Origin: Flavicella marina
GTDB taxonomy: Bacteria > Bacteroidota > Bacteroidia > Flavobacteriales > Flavobacteriaceae
Reading direction: 5' to 3'
Length of the DNA stretch: 64,000 nt
NCBI RefSeq assembly: GCF_009193215.1
Contig: NZ_VYVA01000001.1
Location: 620,001 to 684,000 of the forward strand
Shown here piece after piece: positions 33,267 through 63,913 of this stretch. A model generated the notes under the pieces. It ran no database searches and was not told the origin of the DNA. It saw only the letters and a list, made by a program, of their open reading frames with translations. A program made the translations under genes and the position numbers. Positions within the stretch are counted from its first letter, which is position 1. Every line of letters starts with the position of its first letter.

Positions 33267-34151
33267 TTACCAGTGAAATCTCACTACGAACTCATGTGTT
33301 CCAGAAGACACAGCACTAAAATCCGAAGTCAACGATTCATACGCATAACCAAAAGATGTGTTGCGTATTACTTTTAGCATTACCGATCCAATGATCGAGG
33401 TATCCAATCGATAGGTCAATCCAGCTTCTATCTTATTAGAAAAATTCGCTACAGCCGACACATCCATTAACATAGTTTCATCAGTTACAATTCTGGCAAA
33501 AACAGAAGGAGTTAAATCTATATTTTCAGAGATTGTAAATCGATAACCTCCTCCAAAATACATATGAAATTTTTCGGTAACTTCATCTGATACCACGTTG
33601 CCATTTTGATCTACTTTTGGTTTCTGAACTTCACTCAATATCAAATTAGGTGATGTTATGTTCAAAAAATATCGATCTCCTTTTAAATAAGCTCCTATAC
33701 CAAAAGATGGACTAAATGCACTTTCACTGCCACTCAACAATGGATCATTGACTCCCAACGAATTAAAATCTATCGAACTAAATGCACCACCAAGTTTTGC
33801 TCCAAAATATAAATTTGTTGTACGATCTAGTTGTAATTTGTAAGAAACATCCAACATCACATCTGTTTTCTTTGAAATAAAAACTTTGTCGTTTACAAGA
33901 GAAAGACCCAACCCAAGGTTTTTCCCGAAACCTTTAGAGACAGATACATACTGAGTAGATGAATCATCATTAAAATCCATTTGTTGCTTTCGAAATCCTA
34001 TTCCAACTTCAGTATTGTCAGACACACCTGCATAGGCTGGGTTCAATATATTCATATTGTATCTATACATCAAATAATTCGGGGCTGTTTCTTGCGCATT
34101 AGTTTTCCACCCAAAAAACGCTATTGTAATTACTATGACAAACTTTTTCAT
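33267..34151 (-). CDS. PorP/SprF-family T9SS outer-membrane partner
   Basis: Outer-membrane barrel of 294 residues. A signal peptide (MKKFVIVITIAFFGWKTNAQ) is followed by PNYLMYRYNMNILNPAYAGV, the family's hallmark N-terminal motif, and by repeating strands up to HEFVVRFHW. PorP/SprF proteins help secrete or attach T9SS cargo that has type B sorting domains. The gene starts 11 bases after a 1146-residue type B cargo gene, which fits a matched pair. The ATG at 34151 gives the signal peptide; the frame from 34184 overlaps the cargo gene. Confidence 0.93.
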   Translation of the reverse strand: MKKFVIVITIAFFGWKTNAQETAPNYLMYRYNMNILNPAYAGVSDNTEVGIGFRKQQMDFNDDSSTQYVSVSKGFGKNLGLGLSLVNDKVFISKKTDVMLDVSYKLQLDRTTNLYFGAKLGGAFSSIDFNSLGVNDPLLSGSESAFSPSFGIGAYLKGDRYFLNITSPNLILSEVQKPKVDQNGNVVSDEVTEKFHMYFGGGYRFTISENIDLTPSVFARIVTDETMLMDVSAVANFSNKIEAGLTYRLDTSIIGSVMLKVIRNTSFGYAYESLTSDFSAVSSGTHEFVVRFHW

Positions 34152-34162
34152 TATGCTTTCTT

Positions 34163-37100
34163 TTAATATTTTAAATACAACCATCCTTTTTTGATATATT
34201 CGCTTGGATAAAAATCTTCTACCGGATCTCCACTTCTAAGAATATAAACATAAGATCCTACTGGTAATTTTCCAGAACCATTTATGTTTCTATTCCCTGA
34301 CCAATCATTTTTATACGGACTCACTTTGTATACCAATTGTCCCGAAGCACTATATATCTCTAATCGGTTGTCAGGGTACATTTCATCGAATTTTTGAATT
34401 ACCCATACATCATTAATACCATCTCCATTTGGTGTAAATCCTTTAGGTATTTCTTTCGAAATATCAATTTCCTCGTCACATACATCTCCCACACCATCAT
34501 CATCAAGATCTAACTGATTTGAATTTTTTACCAAGACACAATTGTCATCTATATCTAATACTCCATCGTTGTCATCATCTTCATCACTTGCATCACCTTC
34601 TCCATCTCTATCTGTATCAAGTTGATCAGGATTTGGAACTAAGGGAGAATTGTCGGTAAAATCGAACACCCCGTCATTGTCATCATCATCATCACAAACA
34701 TTCCCTATTCCATCACTGTCGGTATCTAATTGATCTGGATTTGCTATATCAATACAATTATCATCTTTTGCATCGATACCGTCATTATCACTATCTAAAT
34801 CAACTTCTAAGAAAAACTGTAATGTCTTTGTTTCTGAAACTGATGAAGCTTCAAGCTCCAAAGTATACATTTTGGTTTCATACTCTTCATTCGGAGTAAC
34901 CGTAAAAGTAAACGAACTGTCAGCATTCATTGAAATAGGACTCTCTGGAGAAAAAGATATTGTTGCACCAGCAGGTTGTCCTGTTATTTGTAAAGATACA
35001 GATTCATTAAAACCTGCGAAAACTCGATAATCAACTGTGTATTGAACTGATTTTGTTTCAATTATTTTTTGCTCGTTCTGTGCAGATGAGATTGTAAAAG
35101 TAGGATTATTGGCTTCGAAAACCCCTGAAAACAAACCTCTCCCATGCGTAGCAGCCATTACTACATTTCCTTCTTTTCGATATTGAAGCGCTGTAACTTT
35201 TACATCTTGCATACCATTATCCGTTCGAACCCAATTCGGATTGGTATCATTCCAATTTGTCGTTTTCCATACTCCTAACTCCGTACCAATAATTACCTCT
35301 TCATCTTCTATGGGATTCTGTAAAATAGCTTTTACAGGAATATCAGGTAAATCACCCTCTTTTATCAACCAATTTGTACCACCATCAGAAGAATACCAAA
35401 TGTTTGCTACACCATAATTATGAAATGTTACATAGATTTCATTTTCATTCGAACCAAATTCAACATCAGAAATACTTCCTAAAAAAGTTGCATCAGAGAT
35501 ATCGGTCCAAACTGGTGTGTTATTGGCTTGTACCACCTTCAATATTTTCCCTGTTTCTGTACCTACCAACAATGTAGAGCTATTTGTTGTATGAGGCGAA
35601 ACGGTCAAAGCAGTTGGGTTTGAATCAAGCAATGGATCAGACAACGTTGTTTTTGTAGCTGAACCCGAAGGTGAAATGGATTTTAAGTTAGAATACCTGT
35701 ATAATTTACTATCAAAAGAGGAAGAGCCATTTGTGTATAAAATATCTAAATTTGAATCGAGCGTTGCTTGGTTGATAAAATCCCCATCATTGTTTTCATC
35801 ACTGTTTATGGTACGCCATTCATTAATGTCTAAATTGTACAGAGCATATGCGTTGTTGTAAACATAAGAAACGATTAAATAAGATTCTCCAACTTGATCA
35901 ACGAAACACGCAGCACCATCTCCACCACTAATATCAATTGAATTCTGACTTAATGGATTTTGAAAAAAAGGAGTTCCATTATCCTGTGTTCCTCCTAAAA
36001 AATACTCTTCCGCCGCTGTAGGTGCAATCGCTGTAGAATAAAATTGTGTTACATTATAATCATTTACCATCTTTACGATTGCCGTATTACTGGAAGTAGC
36101 TGTTGACAAATTATTAGCATAGTACACTCCACCATCGTTTCCTATAACAGCTTGATTTGTATTTCCTGGCCTAAAGGTTAAAGCGTGTTGATCGGCATGA
36201 ACCACAGGGAAACCACCTGAAATACCTGATCTCCATTTTGATATTTGACTCCAAGAAGCACCACTGTTTGCAGATCTAAAGAAGTTAATACCACCTACAT
36301 AGAGAATTGCATCATCTAAAGGATCAACTTCGATAACCAAATCATAAAAATCTTGTCCTCTTGTAAAATCATTTGCTGGAATACCACTGTCTGCATCTTG
36401 AGGTTTTTGAATCTCTGTTACATTTTCAAAACCATCAGTTGTTACATAAATGTGAGGTCCTTCTGAAGTTGTTCCTTGAGTTAAAGCGTATGCTTTATTC
36501 GGATTTGTACTAGAAAAAGCCAACTCAGTTCTGTTCGAATCCGCTAGTCTAGTTACCAAAGTCCATGTTATTCCATCGGTAGATTTAAACACCTTACCTG
36601 CACCAGACAAACCAAAACCAGGAGTTGCAATTCCTCCCATCCAAAGTGTATTGTCTGAAGCTATTTCTAAATCATTTGGAGTATCATAAAACGTAAAACT
36701 ACCAACAGTAATTTCCATATTCTCTGCCTCTATTCTCGACCATGTACTCCCCTCATCAGCTGATTTGTACAAACCTGCCGTCTGAGGTCCTAAATAATTA
36801 TTTGGAGAATTCGCATCTCCATATACATGACTACCAACTCCTACAAAAAGCTCTGTGTTCGTCCCGTTATCCCAAGTAATAATATCATTTATATAATAAA
36901 TACCGCTTAGAAATCTACTACTTGAATTTTCTAAATCTCCCTCTCCACTTGCTGTCAATGATAATTTTGTCCAATTGCTCCCGCCATCAGTAGTTTTATA
37001 CACACCATTTCCAACAGCAGCACCAAAGGTATATTGCTCTCCAGTACCTATATACCATATGTTACTATTTCTTGGATCTATCGAATAGCAAGAAACATTC

Positions 37101-37603
37101 ATATTACTTGGTACTCCAGATACTTGAGTCCAAGAAGAATTGACATCGGTAATATCAGTATTCACCCATAAACCACCAGATACTCCACCAGCAAAAACTC
37201 TTTTATTTCCGGCATCATTTGGATCAAAAAAGACAACCCTTGTTCTACCTCCAACATTATTGGGCCCTCTTTCAACCCATGGATTATTTACAGCATCCCC
37301 TGGAGTTTTTCTTTGCAAACTCTTAGAATTTAATTTTTCTTGCAATGCCAAAGTCTTTTCGGGTTCTGGTACACCGATTGCAGGATTCATGGTTAACTCC
37401 CACTCACGTTCATAATACTTGTTTGGCGGTAAACCTTTTTCTTTTCTTTGTACTTTTGAAAGTTTTAATGTTTCTTTAAAAGGAGAGTTTTCTAGAAACT
37501 CTTGATGTTTCAATTTAGCGTCAAATAATTGCTTTTTTTCAGTTTCATGTAAGAAATAAATGCTTGTTATTACCAACAGGAGTACTGCTATATATTTTTT
37601 CAT
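34163..37603 (-). CDS. Large surface protein with beta-propeller, calcium-binding repeats and T9SS type B sorting domain
   Basis: Protein of 1146 residues. After a short signal anchor (about 1-16) comes a long beta-propeller region of the BNR/VPS10 kind, with repeats such as YKTTDGGSNWTKLS and YKSADEGSTWSRIE (about 100-830). A possible Ig-like part (about 840-930) follows. Residues 934-1044 hold thrombospondin type 3 repeats (DSDNDGIDAKDDN, DTDSDGIGNVCD, DDDNDGV), expected to bind calcium. From about 1053, KGFTPNGDGINDVWVI starts the gliding-motility-associated type B sorting domain. Target or ligand is unknown. It lies between dgt and its PorP/SprF partner, 11 bases from each. Confidence 0.92.
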   Translation of the reverse strand: MKKYIAVLLLVITSIYFLHETEKKQLFDAKLKHQEFLENSPFKETLKLSKVQRKEKGLPPNKYYEREWELTMNPAIGVPEPEKTLALQEKLNSKSLQRKTPGDAVNNPWVERGPNNVGGRTRVVFFDPNDAGNKRVFAGGVSGGLWVNTDITDVNSSWTQVSGVPSNMNVSCYSIDPRNSNIWYIGTGEQYTFGAAVGNGVYKTTDGGSNWTKLSLTASGEGDLENSSSRFLSGIYYINDIITWDNGTNTELFVGVGSHVYGDANSPNNYLGPQTAGLYKSADEGSTWSRIEAENMEITVGSFTFYDTPNDLEIASDNTLWMGGIATPGFGLSGAGKVFKSTDGITWTLVTRLADSNRTELAFSSTNPNKAYALTQGTTSEGPHIYVTTDGFENVTEIQKPQDADSGIPANDFTRGQDFYDLVIEVDPLDDAILYVGGINFFRSANSGASWSQISKWRSGISGGFPVVHADQHALTFRPGNTNQAVIGNDGGVYYANNLSTATSSNTAIVKMVNDYNVTQFYSTAIAPTAAEEYFLGGTQDNGTPFFQNPLSQNSIDISGGDGAACFVDQVGESYLIVSYVYNNAYALYNLDINEWRTINSDENNDGDFINQATLDSNLDILYTNGSSSFDSKLYRYSNLKSISPSGSATKTTLSDPLLDSNPTALTVSPHTTNSSTLLVGTETGKILKVVQANNTPVWTDISDATFLGSISDVEFGSNENEIYVTFHNYGVANIWYSSDGGTNWLIKEGDLPDIPVKAILQNPIEDEEVIIGTELGVWKTTNWNDTNPNWVRTDNGMQDVKVTALQYRKEGNVVMAATHGRGLFSGVFEANNPTFTISSAQNEQKIIETKSVQYTVDYRVFAGFNESVSLQITGQPAGATISFSPESPISMNADSSFTFTVTPNEEYETKMYTLELEASSVSETKTLQFFLEVDLDSDNDGIDAKDDNCIDIANPDQLDTDSDGIGNVCDDDDDNDGVFDFTDNSPLVPNPDQLDTDRDGEGDASDEDDDNDGVLDIDDNCVLVKNSNQLDLDDDGVGDVCDEEIDISKEIPKGFTPNGDGINDVWVIQKFDEMYPDNRLEIYSASGQLVYKVSPYKNDWSGNRNINGSGKLPVGSYVYILRSGDPVEDFYPSEYIKKGWLYLKY

Positions 37604-59552: not shown

Positions 59553-59650
59553 AATTTTTTGAGTTTTCATATTTGAATAGACGAAAAAACCGTGAAGAAT
59601 TACAATGCATCAGAAATAAATAAAATTTGAGAATCAATTCTTTCCCATAA

Positions 59651-59680
59651 AAAAAGCCCGAATAGTGCTTCGGGCTTTTT
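59651..59680 (-). terminator. Terminator of the first T9SS cargo gene
   Basis: AAAAAGCCCGAA (59651-59662) pairs perfectly with TTCGGGCTTTTT (59669-59680) around TAGTGC. It is 21 bases after the stop. Confidence 0.88.
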
Positions 59681-59700
59681 TGAACTTTTATTTAAAAAAA

Positions 59701-60399
59701 TTATTTCTTAATAATTTTTCTAATCAAACCATTGTCAGCTTGCAACACATACACCCCTGGAACTAAATCTGAAATATCAATAGAATTTTGACCAGAAAAT
59801 GTTTTCAATACCTGTCCGTTAATGTTAGAAATTGTAACTGAATCGATTCCATCAACATCAGAAATATTTACGACACCTGAAGTTGGGTTTGGATAAACTT
59901 TTAAATCGTTCAATGCGTTATCATCTAATCCCGCAAGTCCAGCTATTGCACTTACAAAACCTTTCGCAACAGCAGGTGGATTGAATTCTGCTTTAGGAGT
60001 AGATACTCGAATTTCATAATAATAATTTGTTGGCGCTCCTTGCCCATTCGGATCTGCAACAAGCAACTCCGCTTTTGTCATAATATCACCATTTCCGTTT
60101 AACACATTTGATCCGGGCTCGATATTTATCGTAATATCTACAGTACCGGTACCTGCTGGCAAAGCGGCAGTATTATGTCCCCATGCTTTCCAACCTTGAG
60201 TCCATGGAGCAGAAACTGCCCAAAAATCTAATTTAATTCCCCCAATAGGCACTTCTGCATCGGCAGTATACGCAAATTGAAAAGTAACAGATGGGGCTTG
60301 AGGGAAATCAGCAGCAGCTGGTGACCAACTCAATGCATCTTGTCCATAAGAAAATGTTGTTGCTACAAAAGCAATTGCTAAAAGTAAATTTTTCATCAT
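59701..60399 (-). CDS. Secreted T9SS type A cargo protein, unknown function
   Basis: Protein of 232 residues. The signal peptide covers about 1-20 (MMKNLLLAIAFVATTFSYGQ). The mature part (about 21-150) is beta-rich and unrecognised, with WSPAAADFPQAPSVTFQFAY and QGWKAWGHNTAALPAGTG. A type A sorting domain starts at LKVYPNPTSGVVNIS (about 166) and ends RKIIKK. Leader, signal peptide start and sorting domain are strongly similar to those of the next T9SS gene, but the middle is not. It may bind glycans beside the GH3 enzyme, which is only an inference from position. Confidence 0.82.
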   Translation of the reverse strand: MMKNLLLAIAFVATTFSYGQDALSWSPAAADFPQAPSVTFQFAYTADAEVPIGGIKLDFWAVSAPWTQGWKAWGHNTAALPAGTGTVDITINIEPGSNVLNGNGDIMTKAELLVADPNGQGAPTNYYYEIRVSTPKAEFNPPAVAKGFVSAIAGLAGLDDNALNDLKVYPNPTSGVVNISDVDGIDSVTISNINGQVLKTFSGQNSIDISDLVPGVYVLQADNGLIRKIIKK

Positions 60400-60436
60400 A
60401 ATAATTAAGTTTATTGAATTGTGGTTATTATCATTT

Positions 60437-60465
60437 TAAAAGTAAATGTTCTTAATATAATCAAA
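60437..60465 (-). promoter_or_regulatory. Promoter of the first T9SS cargo gene
   Basis: On the minus strand TTTG (60462-60465), 17 bases, then TACTTTTA (60437-60444), one base off the -7 consensus. It predicts a leader of about 32 bases. Confidence 0.4.
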
Positions 60466-60540
60466 GGAAAGAAATGGTTTTAAACAAGAATCATATGTTC
60501 GATTTTGACTAAAACAATTGATATTCTCGTAGAATAGAAA

Positions 60541-60568
60541 AAAAGCTCAAATTTGTATTTGAGCTTTT
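60541..60568 (-). terminator. Terminator of the second T9SS cargo gene
   Basis: AAAAGCTCAAAT (60541-60552) pairs perfectly with ATTTGAGCTTTT (60557-60568) around TTGT, with T-runs outside. Confidence 0.85.
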
Positions 60569-60586
60569 TTTCTTTTATTTAAATAA

Positions 60587-61375
60587 TTATTCCTTAATAA
60601 TTTTTCTATTCAACCCATTATCAGCTTGTAAAAAATACACACCTGACACTAAATCTGAAATATCAATAGCGTTTTGAGCAGGGAATGTTTTTAATACCTG
60701 TCCGTTGACATTGGTTACAGTAATCGTATTGATACCTTCAACAATTGAAATATTTACTATACCATTCGTAGGATTAGGGTATACGTTTAGTTTTGGATTA
60801 TCAATATACTTAGTACTCACGGTAGCATTAGAACTTTGGGTAATATCATCAATATAAAAAACTTCTCCAGCTCCAACTGATCCATCTTTATTAAACCAAA
60901 CATCAATTCTATTTGCCCATCCATCAGCAATTCCTGAATAATCAAACTCGGCTATAAACCATTCATTCAAAGTAACACCAGTAAAAGATTGCGTGACTGA
61001 TGGATCAGCAGCCGTACCGCTTACCCATGGTCTTAATGTCAAAGTAAAATCTGTCAAATCTTCCGAAAGAACTTTAATCTGCATATATTTTCCATTTGTA
61101 AAATTCCATCCTCCTGGAACACTCCCTATCTCATTGATAATCGGGAACGACCAATTTGGTGCACTCGTTTCAAGTGTAATACTTACTGCATTCGCACTTG
61201 AATTAATTCCATTTGTAATCGGGTTCGCAGCAGCTATTCCATCCTGTTGAGGAGATGAGCCCTTGTTATTTCCAATATTAAATGTTTTTCCAGGTTCAAA
61301 ATCTAAAATAGTAGTTTGCCCATTAAATGTTGTTGTTACAATTAGTGTAACTAGTAAAAGTAATTTTTTCATCAT
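60587..61375 (-). CDS. Secreted T9SS type A cargo protein, possible carbohydrate-binding type
   Basis: Protein of 262 residues starting at the double ATG at 61375. Signal peptide about 1-20 (MMKKLLLLVTLIVTTTFNGQ). The middle (about 22-185) is a beta-sandwich-like module: ILDFEPGKTF at its start, ADGWANRIDVWFNKDGSVGAG and FYIDDITQ at its end, a plan seen in carbohydrate-binding modules. The sorting domain starts at LNVYPNPTNGIVNIS and agrees with the neighbouring cargo protein at 48 of the last 65 residues. The frame from 61423 adds a stretch without signal character. Confidence 0.82.
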   Translation of the reverse strand: MMKKLLLLVTLIVTTTFNGQTTILDFEPGKTFNIGNNKGSSPQQDGIAAANPITNGINSSANAVSITLETSAPNWSFPIINEIGSVPGGWNFTNGKYMQIKVLSEDLTDFTLTLRPWVSGTAADPSVTQSFTGVTLNEWFIAEFDYSGIADGWANRIDVWFNKDGSVGAGEVFYIDDITQSSNATVSTKYIDNPKLNVYPNPTNGIVNISIVEGINTITVTNVNGQVLKTFPAQNAIDISDLVSGVYFLQADNGLNRKIIKE

Positions 61376-61495
61376 AATTAAGTATTTGTTGTGGTTAGCA
61401 AATACAAAACTATCAGAACACACTAGGGAACAGCATATTATATGATTTCATCAGCAAAACAAATGATTTTTTTTGCGATATAAAAAAAGCATACA

Positions 61496-61545: not shown

Positions 61546-63831
61546 TTATTTACTTAATGAAAAGTTAGCTTCTAAAGATTTTGCTGAACTCTCGCCTATA
61601 AAAACCGTAAAATCTCCGAACTCTGCTTCCCATTTATTCTGTGCAGTATAAAACTGCAACATTTTAGCATCAATAGTAAACTGAACAACTTTTGATTCTC
61701 CTGGATTTAGAGAAATCATTTCAAATCCTTTCAATTCTTTTACAGGTCTAGTTCTGCTTCCTACCAAATCTCTGATATATAGTTGCACAACTTCTTTCCC
61801 AAAATATTTTCCCGTGTTGGTAACTGTCACAGAAGCTACGATAGAACTATCTTTAGTTAAGGTTTTAGCACTCAATTCTAAATCTTTATAAGAAAACGAG
61901 GTATACGACAATCCATAACCAAACGGATACAAAGGACTGTTTGACACATCTTGATAATGTGAATGAAAGACATCATTTGGATTTTCTTTTAAAGGCCTTC
62001 CAGTATTTTTATAATTATAATAAATAGGTACTTGCCCTACATTTTTCGGAAACGTCATAGGTAATTTTCCTGAGGGATTGTAATCGCCATACAAAACTTG
62101 AGCAATTGCATTTCCACTTTGACTTCCTAACTGCCAAGCTTCAATTATTGAAGGCACATTTTTATCAGCCCAATTAATTGCCAATGGACGTCCATTCATC
62201 AAAACTAAAACAATGTTTTTATTCACTTTATACACAGCTTCTAAAAGTTCTTGTTGTAAGCCTGGAAGTTTTAAATTACTTCTACTTCTAGCTTCACCTG
62301 ATTGAAAGCCATGCTCACCTAAAACCATAATCACTACATCTTTATTCTTAGCCGCACGAACCGCTTCTTTAAATCCAGATTTATCTGAGGTATTCACCTG
62401 AACTTCCTGAGTAAAAGTAGGATTACCCAGTGCCAGTTTTGGACCAGGGGCGAATGTTATATTGTTCTTTTCATATGATTTTAACCCTTCTAATACAGAA
62501 ATAGCTGTTTTGTCTTCAGCTGCAATTCTCCAACTACCCAATGGACTTGTCTTATCATTCGCCAAATCACCAATTACAGCTATATTCAATCCTTCTTTCT
62601 TTAGTGGTAATAACTGATTTTCATTTTTTAATAACACTATAGATTTCTTAGCTATATCTAAAGACGCTTTGTGTAATTCTTCACTACCTGTTACTTCTCG
62701 CTCTCTATTTACATCACAATATTTATAAGGATTATCAAACAACCCTAATTCGAATTTTACTTTAAGTATTCTTCTTGCAGCGTCATTTACATAAGATTCT
62801 TTTACTTTTCCTTCTTCTACCAATTCTTTCATATAGGTAACAAATGTATATGACTCCATATCCATATCAGAACCAGCGTTTACAGCCAACTCTGCAGCAT
62901 GCTTGTCATCTTTCGCATATCCATGTGCTACCATTTCTCCAGCAGAATCCCAATCAGAAACAATAAAACCATCAAACCCCCATGCCCCTTTCAAAACCTC
63001 TCGTTGTAAAAATGCATTCCCGGTTGCAGGGATGCCATTCAACTCATTGAAAGAATTCATATAAGTTCTTACTCCTGCTTTTGTTGCCGCGATAAAAGGC
63101 GGAAAAATAATATTATACAAAGTACTCATCCCTACATCCACAGTATTATAATCTCTTCCTGCTTCAGCAAAACCATACCCAGCAAAATGTTTCGCACAAG
63201 CCACAATCGTAATAGCATCCGACAAGTCCTCTCCTTGAAAACCTTGAACTCTTGCTTTAGCAATCAAACTTCCCAAATAAGGATCTTCACCTGCTCCTTC
63301 CATTACTCTACCCCATCTCGCATCTCTTGATATATCAACCATTGGTGCAAATGTCCAATTGATACCAGCTGCTGAAGCTTCCAAAGCCGCATTTTTTGCA
63401 GAGTTTTTAATAGCATCTAAATCCCAACTCGCTGCTTCTGCTAACGGAATTGGAGTCAAAGTCTTGTATCCATGAATCACATCAAAACCTATAATCAAAG
63501 GGATTCCTAATCGTGTTTTTTCAACGGCAATTTTCTGTACTGCCTTCACGTTTTCGACACCTCGTACATTTAACATTGAACCCACCAAACCAGCTTCTAG
63601 ATGTTTGTACTTTAGTTGAGCAGCTCCCTTTTTTGGACTAGGACCTGTTACATTCCAAAAACCATTGTACTGATTCATCTGACCAATTTTTTCTTCGAGG
63701 GTCATCAAACGCAACACAGAGTCAACTTTAAAGTTTAATGAATCTGAAATTGGGTCTGGTACTGGATCTGTTTGACAACCGACAATTAACAGCATAAAAA
63801 ACACAATCACTAAGCGACATAGATTCATCAT
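61546..63831 (-). CDS. bglX: Glycoside hydrolase family 3 beta-glucosidase, lipoprotein
   Basis: Exo-acting beta-glycosidase of 761 residues from the double ATG at 63831. Lipobox LLIVGC puts a lipid on Cys19, so it is membrane-anchored. The GH3 N-terminal domain covers about 35-360, with KHFAGYGFAEAGRDYN and the nucleophile Asp293 in FIVSDWDSAGEM. The C-terminal sandwich domain covers about 400-640 (VVIMVLGEHGFQSGEARSRSNLKLPG). A fibronectin III-like domain ends the protein (about 670-760). It resembles BglX, which cleaves glucose from beta-linked oligosaccharides; laminarin-type glucans are a reasonable guess in marine relatives. The frame from 63897 would put extra residues before the signal. 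Confidence 0.94.
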   Translation of the reverse strand: MMNLCRLVIVFFMLLIVGCQTDPVPDPISDSLNFKVDSVLRLMTLEEKIGQMNQYNGFWNVTGPSPKKGAAQLKYKHLEAGLVGSMLNVRGVENVKAVQKIAVEKTRLGIPLIIGFDVIHGYKTLTPIPLAEAASWDLDAIKNSAKNAALEASAAGINWTFAPMVDISRDARWGRVMEGAGEDPYLGSLIAKARVQGFQGEDLSDAITIVACAKHFAGYGFAEAGRDYNTVDVGMSTLYNIIFPPFIAATKAGVRTYMNSFNELNGIPATGNAFLQREVLKGAWGFDGFIVSDWDSAGEMVAHGYAKDDKHAAELAVNAGSDMDMESYTFVTYMKELVEEGKVKESYVNDAARRILKVKFELGLFDNPYKYCDVNREREVTGSEELHKASLDIAKKSIVLLKNENQLLPLKKEGLNIAVIGDLANDKTSPLGSWRIAAEDKTAISVLEGLKSYEKNNITFAPGPKLALGNPTFTQEVQVNTSDKSGFKEAVRAAKNKDVVIMVLGEHGFQSGEARSRSNLKLPGLQQELLEAVYKVNKNIVLVLMNGRPLAINWADKNVPSIIEAWQLGSQSGNAIAQVLYGDYNPSGKLPMTFPKNVGQVPIYYNYKNTGRPLKENPNDVFHSHYQDVSNSPLYPFGYGLSYTSFSYKDLELSAKTLTKDSSIVASVTVTNTGKYFGKEVVQLYIRDLVGSRTRPVKELKGFEMISLNPGESKVVQFTIDAKMLQFYTAQNKWEAEFGDFTVFIGESSAKSLEANFSLSK

Positions 63832-63913
63832 AACTCTATAGATTTTGAGATGTATTAAATTTAAGATAATTTTTACCTCAATCAAATTAATTATCAAAAA
63901 GGGGAAAAATTTA

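Follow-up and report, generated by a model that had tools for sequence, protein, structure and literature searches.

Both domain shuffling and sorting domains that act as portable signals have been described, each in its own right. Among cargo of the type IX secretion system (T9SS), the type A sorting domain (TIGR04183/PF18962) is known as a portable signal: in one study, a type A tail exports a foreign protein, and GFP needs no more than the 22 C-terminal residues of one such tail (PMC10202324). Type A tails below 40% identity are described in a second study as all travelling via PorV, and that study also ties the sequence of type B tails, which have cognate PorP/SprF shuttles, to gene neighbourhood (PMC12618676). 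Variation of T9SS-exported surface proteins by module recombination is described for the gingipains and haemagglutinins of Porphyromonas gingivalis, large proteins whose adhesin modules differ in arrangement among strains, having been reshuffled both inside a protein and from one protein to another (PMC5266723). For binding modules, the closest described counterparts are CBM X584 (8qx6), which binds laminarin, and the PKD-CBM proteins encoded in laminarin loci.

Our study of a 64 000 nt stretch of the Flavicella marina genome (the window) revealed two neighbouring genes, here called A and B, which resemble each of these systems in part. Both end in a type A domain above cut-off, as known cargo does, but here the tails of neighbours are alike over unlike cores. 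Unlike the P. gingivalis proteins, A and B keep the sorting tail alike between neighbours; and whereas the type B tails just mentioned are paired with shuttle genes, those of A and B are type A and no shuttle gene was noticed beside them. The core of B resembles X584 by profile and fold, and its GH3 and GH16 neighbourhood recalls the laminarin loci, but the PKD-CBM protein of Algibacter miyuki has five modules in a row and no T9SS tail was seen on it, whereas B joins a single module to a T9SS tail. A literature search, which most subscription papers lay outside, returned no description of alike or exchanged tails in neighbours with unlike cores. We give a probability of roughly two in three to module reassortment combined with neighbour-limited tail homogenization in sugar-binding T9SS cargo. 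What was observed is that the ends are homologous, that identity breaks off at domain borders, that the cores are unlike, that relatives carry recombined module orders, that tails tend to group by genome and that tails were recently homogenized in two other species; conversion as the cause at the A/B locus, and a binding function of its proteins, are what we infer.

The coordinates given for the two genes in a preliminary description of the window, made from the letters alone, were correct, and both genes lie on the minus strand as neighbours, B upstream of A (Table 1). The start of B was set at the ATG, and the ORF list gives an upstream GTG instead. Scores for TIGR04183 and PF18962 lay well over the curated cut-offs of 23 and 27, at 42.1 and 44.2 bits for A and 43.1 and 46.8 bits for B. 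Signal peptides, putatively for Sec, were recognized by eye (MMKKLLLL... in A, MMKNLLLA... in B). An identity as SusE-like surface glycan-binding lipoproteins was considered and rejected, as the signal regions of both translations, read by eye, are without cysteine and a T9SS tail is present instead. The hairpin after A is listed on the plus strand by the pattern scan because it is near-symmetric.

Table 1. Features of the A/B locus and its upstream neighbour, with positions in the window
Feature	Position	Strand	Evidence and remarks
Gene A, T9SS cargo of 232 aa: signal peptide, orphan core, type A sorting domain	59701..60399	-	ORF; PF18962 E 2.4e-11, TIGR04183 E 6.2e-11, above cut-off
Gene B, T9SS cargo of 262 aa: signal peptide, CBM-like core, type A sorting domain	60587..61375	-	ORF from ATG at 61375; PF18962 E 3.7e-12, TIGR04183 E 3.1e-11
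Shared 3' end of A: sorting domain, stop, proximal 3' UTR	59649..59903	-	blastn match, 255 bp, 77%
Shared 3' end of B	60538..60789	-	blastn match, 255 columns, 77%
Shared 5' end of A: leader and signal peptide	60352..60427	-	blastn match, 79 columns, 77%
Shared 5' end of B: leader and signal peptide	61325..61397	-	blastn match, 79 columns, 77%
Core of A, unlike B; single relative is the second half of A2 in genome G002	59926..60345	-	E 6e-5, 0/500 shuffles as high; otherwise no match in 247 genomes
Core of B, predicted beta-sandwich carbohydrate-binding module; nearest solved structure a laminarin-binding CBM	60791..61321	-	Profile match 8qx6 E 1.4e-6; model Z 14.8, rmsd 2.4, 142 residues
Terminator-like hairpin after A	59650..59681	-	Pattern scan lists + strand; by position a bidirectional or minus-strand terminator
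Terminator-like hairpin after B, stem differing from that after A	60536..60573	-	Pattern scan lists + strand
GH3 beta-glucosidase (BglX-like), directly upstream of B	61546..63897	-	PF00933, PF01915; NF011678 above cut-off; 70% identical to GH3 of Algibacter miyuki locus L230

Comparing the two loci by blastn revealed 196 identical positions of 255 at the 3' ends (77%), in a match that sets in where the sorting domain begins, extends about 20 nt beyond the stop and then continues more loosely into the hairpin, and 61 of 79 (77%) at the 5' ends, covering leader and signal peptide; no significant DNA match was found by this method between the two. A repeat search of the region gave the same picture, with direct repeats of 217 nt at 77% and 63 nt at 73%. 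Ungapped windows of 15 nt held 7-14 matches in the tail, with at least 10 in 12 of the 13 windows from -195, and upstream of it, from -330 to -225, 1-6 matches in six of seven windows and 8 in the seventh. The DNA-level alignment that the preliminary description proposed as a check for sharp drops in identity did locate such drops, which coincide with the borders of the signal peptide and of the sorting domain. Its count of 48 identical residues among the last 65 was reproduced; in the tail scoring it was 49 of 67, or about 73% identity.

The ends of A and B were then set against the genome's other T9SS genes, end similarity no greater than among all of these having been named beforehand as what would speak against a special relationship. 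The genome holds 72 sorting-domain matches, of which 65 genes were compared (63 above cut-off and two weaker ones, with seven weaker ones left out), giving 2080 pairs. Tail scores had a median of 50 and a 99th percentile of 125, and A/B, at 259, stood above this background at rank 4. The three pairs above it belong to one adjacent trio (G000:C7:820-824 kb; L099:5420-9042) whose tails are 86-92% identical over unlike cores, so that the suggested search for further genes with the same ends and different centres also had a positive outcome. A third gene, L056 (C7:97 kb), also has a tail of the A/B subtype, and its core is related to that of B (E 1.8e-6). The first 66 nt of the coding sequence and the 25 nt after the stop each ranked first among the 2080 pairs, and the 60 nt before the ATG ranked only 39th. 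The part upstream of the ATG was rejected as a special A/B element: AACCA stands before 18 of the 65 T9SS genes, although the exact 8-mer AACCACAA occurs upstream in only two of them. Homology of the hairpins was likewise rejected, as the stems are unrelated and only the generic terminator frame AAAAAAGC...GCTTTTTT is common to both. As a separate observation, AACCA lies at most 45 nt before the start in those 18 genes, against 4.4 expected by shuffling and 3 of the 33 other genes of the window, and it is possibly a common leader element of T9SS genes.

Likeness of this kind could also have arisen through selection by the same secretion machinery, as convergence or constraint with neither exchange nor recent descent, and the substitution rates over the whole A/B tail (dN 0.15 against dS 0.97) are of the sort that such constraint would leave. 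We regard this as very improbable. The genome's other type A tails differ widely (median score 50 against 259), and the likeness of A and B extends beyond the protein, past the stop and into silent sites, where 24 of the 32 same-residue codons among the last 40 are identical. A tail identity of 73% that takes in silent positions and the beginning of the 3' UTR reflects descent or exchange rather than need, because type A tails less than 40% identical all use PorV and 22 residues of one such tail are enough to export GFP, according to PMC12618676 and PMC10202324, respectively.

Tail likeness was found to go with adjacency. In this genome, with A/B set aside, adjacent T9SS pairs lacking core similarity had a median tail score of 236 (n=4 only, one of which, C7:48756/52086, was unlike at a score of 42), against 47 for 1955 distant pairs (p 0.008). 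Clusters in four other genomes (G001, G002, G004 and G138) gave a median of 105 for 17 adjacent pairs and 63 for 598 distant pairs (p 6.8e-6), with 8 of the 17 above the 99th percentile of the distant pairs. Since pairs are not independent, both p values are only indicative. The regions of the four-genome test were a subset of such clusters, picked by hand from the positions of neighbouring sorting domains and not by likeness; loci of other genomes were dropped, as were L158-L163 and L218, which had been fetched for tail or core likeness, whereas L164 was kept though fetched after a weak tail match. The test was run with and without short proteins, on 17 and 11 pairs.

Between these matching ends, the cores show no sign of kinship in sequence, in keeping with the preliminary description. 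Smith-Waterman alignment of core A with core B scored 36, at shuffle level (33.2 +/- 6.0; 144 of 500 shuffles equal or higher), and profile-profile comparison gave a probability of 0.2%. Searches of PDB sequences with single cores returned nothing convincing. Among the genomes of 247 relatives, the core of A was found in none but its own, save for the weaker match to the core of A2, which was seen with the whole protein. The structure of A, predicted without relatives, is poor (mean pLDDT 46) and mostly strands; a second binding module is the likeliest guess at its function. A reading of this core as a second copy of an Ig-like domain, by profile comparison with the domain here called dom1, received no support (probability 0.6%). 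Cores that are homologous but have diverged past sequence detection would make A and B an ordinary tandem duplicate with fast centres. Beta-sandwiches are indeed frequent among surface modules, and the poor model of A does consist mostly of strands, but alignment and profiles gave no signal and both core types are present separately in the relative G002, each with its own relatives, and we consider this explanation improbable.

The comparison with relatives, which included six genomes of the same genus, revealed the same modules in other combinations. In G002, SusC and SusD genes are followed by A2, by a beta-helix-like protein (recognized by eye, on the opposite strand) that ends in a B-type core and a tail, and by B2. 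A2 and B2 are both 383 aa long and consist of dom1, a core and a tail, the core being A-like in A2 and B-like in B2 (E 4e-10 to the core of B); they have dom1 (E 1e-5) and the tail in common and the last module not. In genome G138 a B-type core stands alone in a gene that lies two genes downstream of SusD, and in G065 similar tails are carried by two genes, one with a B-type core and one with dom1. Beside a sulfatase in G004 lie three genes of the A/B tail subtype, with tails 70-76% identical among themselves and cores without clear mutual likeness. B-type cores thus occur on their own or follow a beta-helix, dom1 or another domain, and dom1 precedes three different modules. As the cores are found in other combinations elsewhere, they have been exchanged. 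Separately, a cytochrome P450 gene is present in the G002 locus of A2 and B2 (L158:13211-17964), together with genes that were recognized by eye as those of a putative reductase, esterase and alcohol dehydrogenase. Such a set occurs in agar/porphyran loci that demethylate galactose.

Tails and cores were seen to follow different histories. The core of B is nearest to those of G138 (40%) and of the G002 helix protein (33%), whereas in the tail B shares 38-39% identity with these two and 73% with A; one tail of the G004 cluster (G004_2) is as close to B (73%) as the tail of A is. A tree of 16 tails joined A with B (support 92/89), A2 with B2 (80/83) and the two G065 genes with each other (93/89), with no branch starred. 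Approximately unbiased (AU) tests on this tree rejected B with B2 (p 0.030) and B with G138 and the helix protein (p 0.037), and did not reject A with A2 (p 0.15). The tree of B-type cores is weakly supported (B with G138 and the helix protein, 51/17). Overall, tails among relatives tend to group by genome and not by core. This disagreement between core and tail histories indicates that tails have been exchanged or homogenized, as far as sequence can tell, the 68 alignment columns being too few for detail.

Within the A/B pair itself, the likeness at silent sites is uneven. Codons 28-67 of the tail (the last 40) have a dS of 0.50 and codons 1-27 are saturated, with a silent-site difference of p 0.017 by Fisher's test for a split that was chosen after looking. 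This pattern fits, and does not prove, an old frame with partial later exchange. With a dS of about 1 over the tail as a whole, the event is old and its mechanism is one that we infer. The same dS also fits a one-off tandem duplication, after which one copy was given another core and tail likeness simply reflects descent, with no continuing gene conversion; A and B are adjacent, on the same strand, and match at both the 5' and the 3' end. This simpler history is nevertheless rather unlikely, because it needs independent repeats for A2/B2, the G065 genes, the adjacent trio and G004, leaves the closer silent sites of the last 40 codons unaccounted for, and stands against gene conversion seen in relatives.

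Those relatives are species of another genus of the order (g184). In T9SS arrays of two genomes, G233 and G219, tail dS was 0.14, 0.02 and 0.11 in pairs whose core dS was saturated, 3.06 and 1.52, respectively, and whose core dN was 0.5-0.7. In a third genome, G245, tail dS was 1.06-1.92, with no low value. When the tail groups of the three genomes, named from the core tree, were tested as clades, two of the three were rejected (AU p 0.0075 and 0.0034) and one was not (p 0.20). A survey of the genus used the best 15 of 30 loci (at least 65% identity), with one orthologous gene per species; T9SS gene arrays with one tail subtype were observed in all 15 species examined (L233-L247). A clade of the 15 orthologous tails was rejected (p 0.0029). 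Neighbour pairs were counted in 14 of the 15 species, G256 being left out as its upstream ORF is without a tail of this kind, and 2 of the 14 were recently homogenized (dS 0.11 and 0.14) and 12 were not (0.6-2.3), from which it follows that neighbour tail exchange happens, but not constantly. Together these sequence comparisons make tail gene conversion between neighbours in two other species of the order a well-supported reading. The duplication with core replacement, or gene conversion, that the preliminary description proposed is thereby partly borne out: shared ends over unlike cores stand above background and recur in the genome and in relatives, the cores have been exchanged, and conversion is well supported in the two other species. 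For A and B themselves, whose tail dS is 0.97, or 0.50 over the last 40 codons, conversion is plausible, and either it or duplication with core replacement may have come first.

The same description also saw something cassette-like in the pair, and repeated ends round variable centres do look that way. A programmed cassette or phase-variation system that swaps cores between fixed ends is, however, scarcely credible. Good matches to the tail DNA of A occur in the whole genome only on A, B and L056, each an intact gene, and accordingly no silent copy was found there; the reading frames of all 63 sorting domains above cut-off are free of stops; and ends that are 77% identical are too diverged for frequent exchange. 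Nothing in these comparisons points to an active cassette system.

Under module reassortment with neighbour-limited tail homogenization, A and B would be small proteins of sugar-binding type on the type IX route to the surface, in which a single inherited frame for export, made up of the start region, the signal peptide, the type A sorting domain and the proximal 3' UTR, bears two unrelated modules. The pair would have originated by reassortment, in which modules are joined in varied combinations to one kind of tail, and neighbouring copies would swap tail sequence by gene conversion, leaving tails alike within a locus and cores different. After Sec export, the tail would be recognized by the T9SS (PorV shuttle), and the putative beta-glucan-binding module of B and the module of A would be displayed at the surface. 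More tentatively, we suggest that neighbouring T9SS tails in Flavobacteriales may evolve in concert by neighbourhood-limited gene conversion, a standing tail serving as a landing frame for the exchange of binding modules and as a general route to new surface and polysaccharide-binding repertoires. If true, this would link domain shuffling with portable sorting domains and explain how new proteins join the T9SS route. It would also caution against inferring kinship of cargo from tail similarity, and would offer tail dS against core dS as a measurable signature for surveys of many genomes.

B itself is most likely a surface-displayed beta-glucan-binding protein, judging by profile and structural model. 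A profile of seven B-type cores found 8qx6, titled 'Novel laminarin-binding CBM X584', as its sole match below E 1 among PDB sequences. The predicted model of B is of middling confidence (mean pLDDT 61.9, about 70 in the core); 8qx6 was also its best structural match, followed from Z 12.7 downwards by other beta-sandwich domains, many of them binding modules. Foldseek alone ranked CBM4 and CBM16 domains first, and toxin-binding domains in its list were set aside as generic beta-sandwich matches with low TM-scores. In Algibacter miyuki, the PKD protein with five B-core-like domains (cut out by eye) lies between GH16 and GH3. The Algibacter relatives of B, together with the algal-polysaccharide loci of the genome, suggest a flavobacterium of marine type. 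The beta-glucan-binding reading of B is based on the 8qx6 match, the GH3 neighbour and a laminarin-type locus, and the display site would lie beside the GH3 beta-glucosidase of that locus. SusC, SusD, GH16 and GH30 genes, which make up the laminarin-type locus, start about 10 kb past the end of the window (L096:12204-19899). Elsewhere in the window, at 33267-37603, a protein of 1146 aa with an apparent type B sorting domain adjoins a gene that looks, by eye, PorP/SprF-like.
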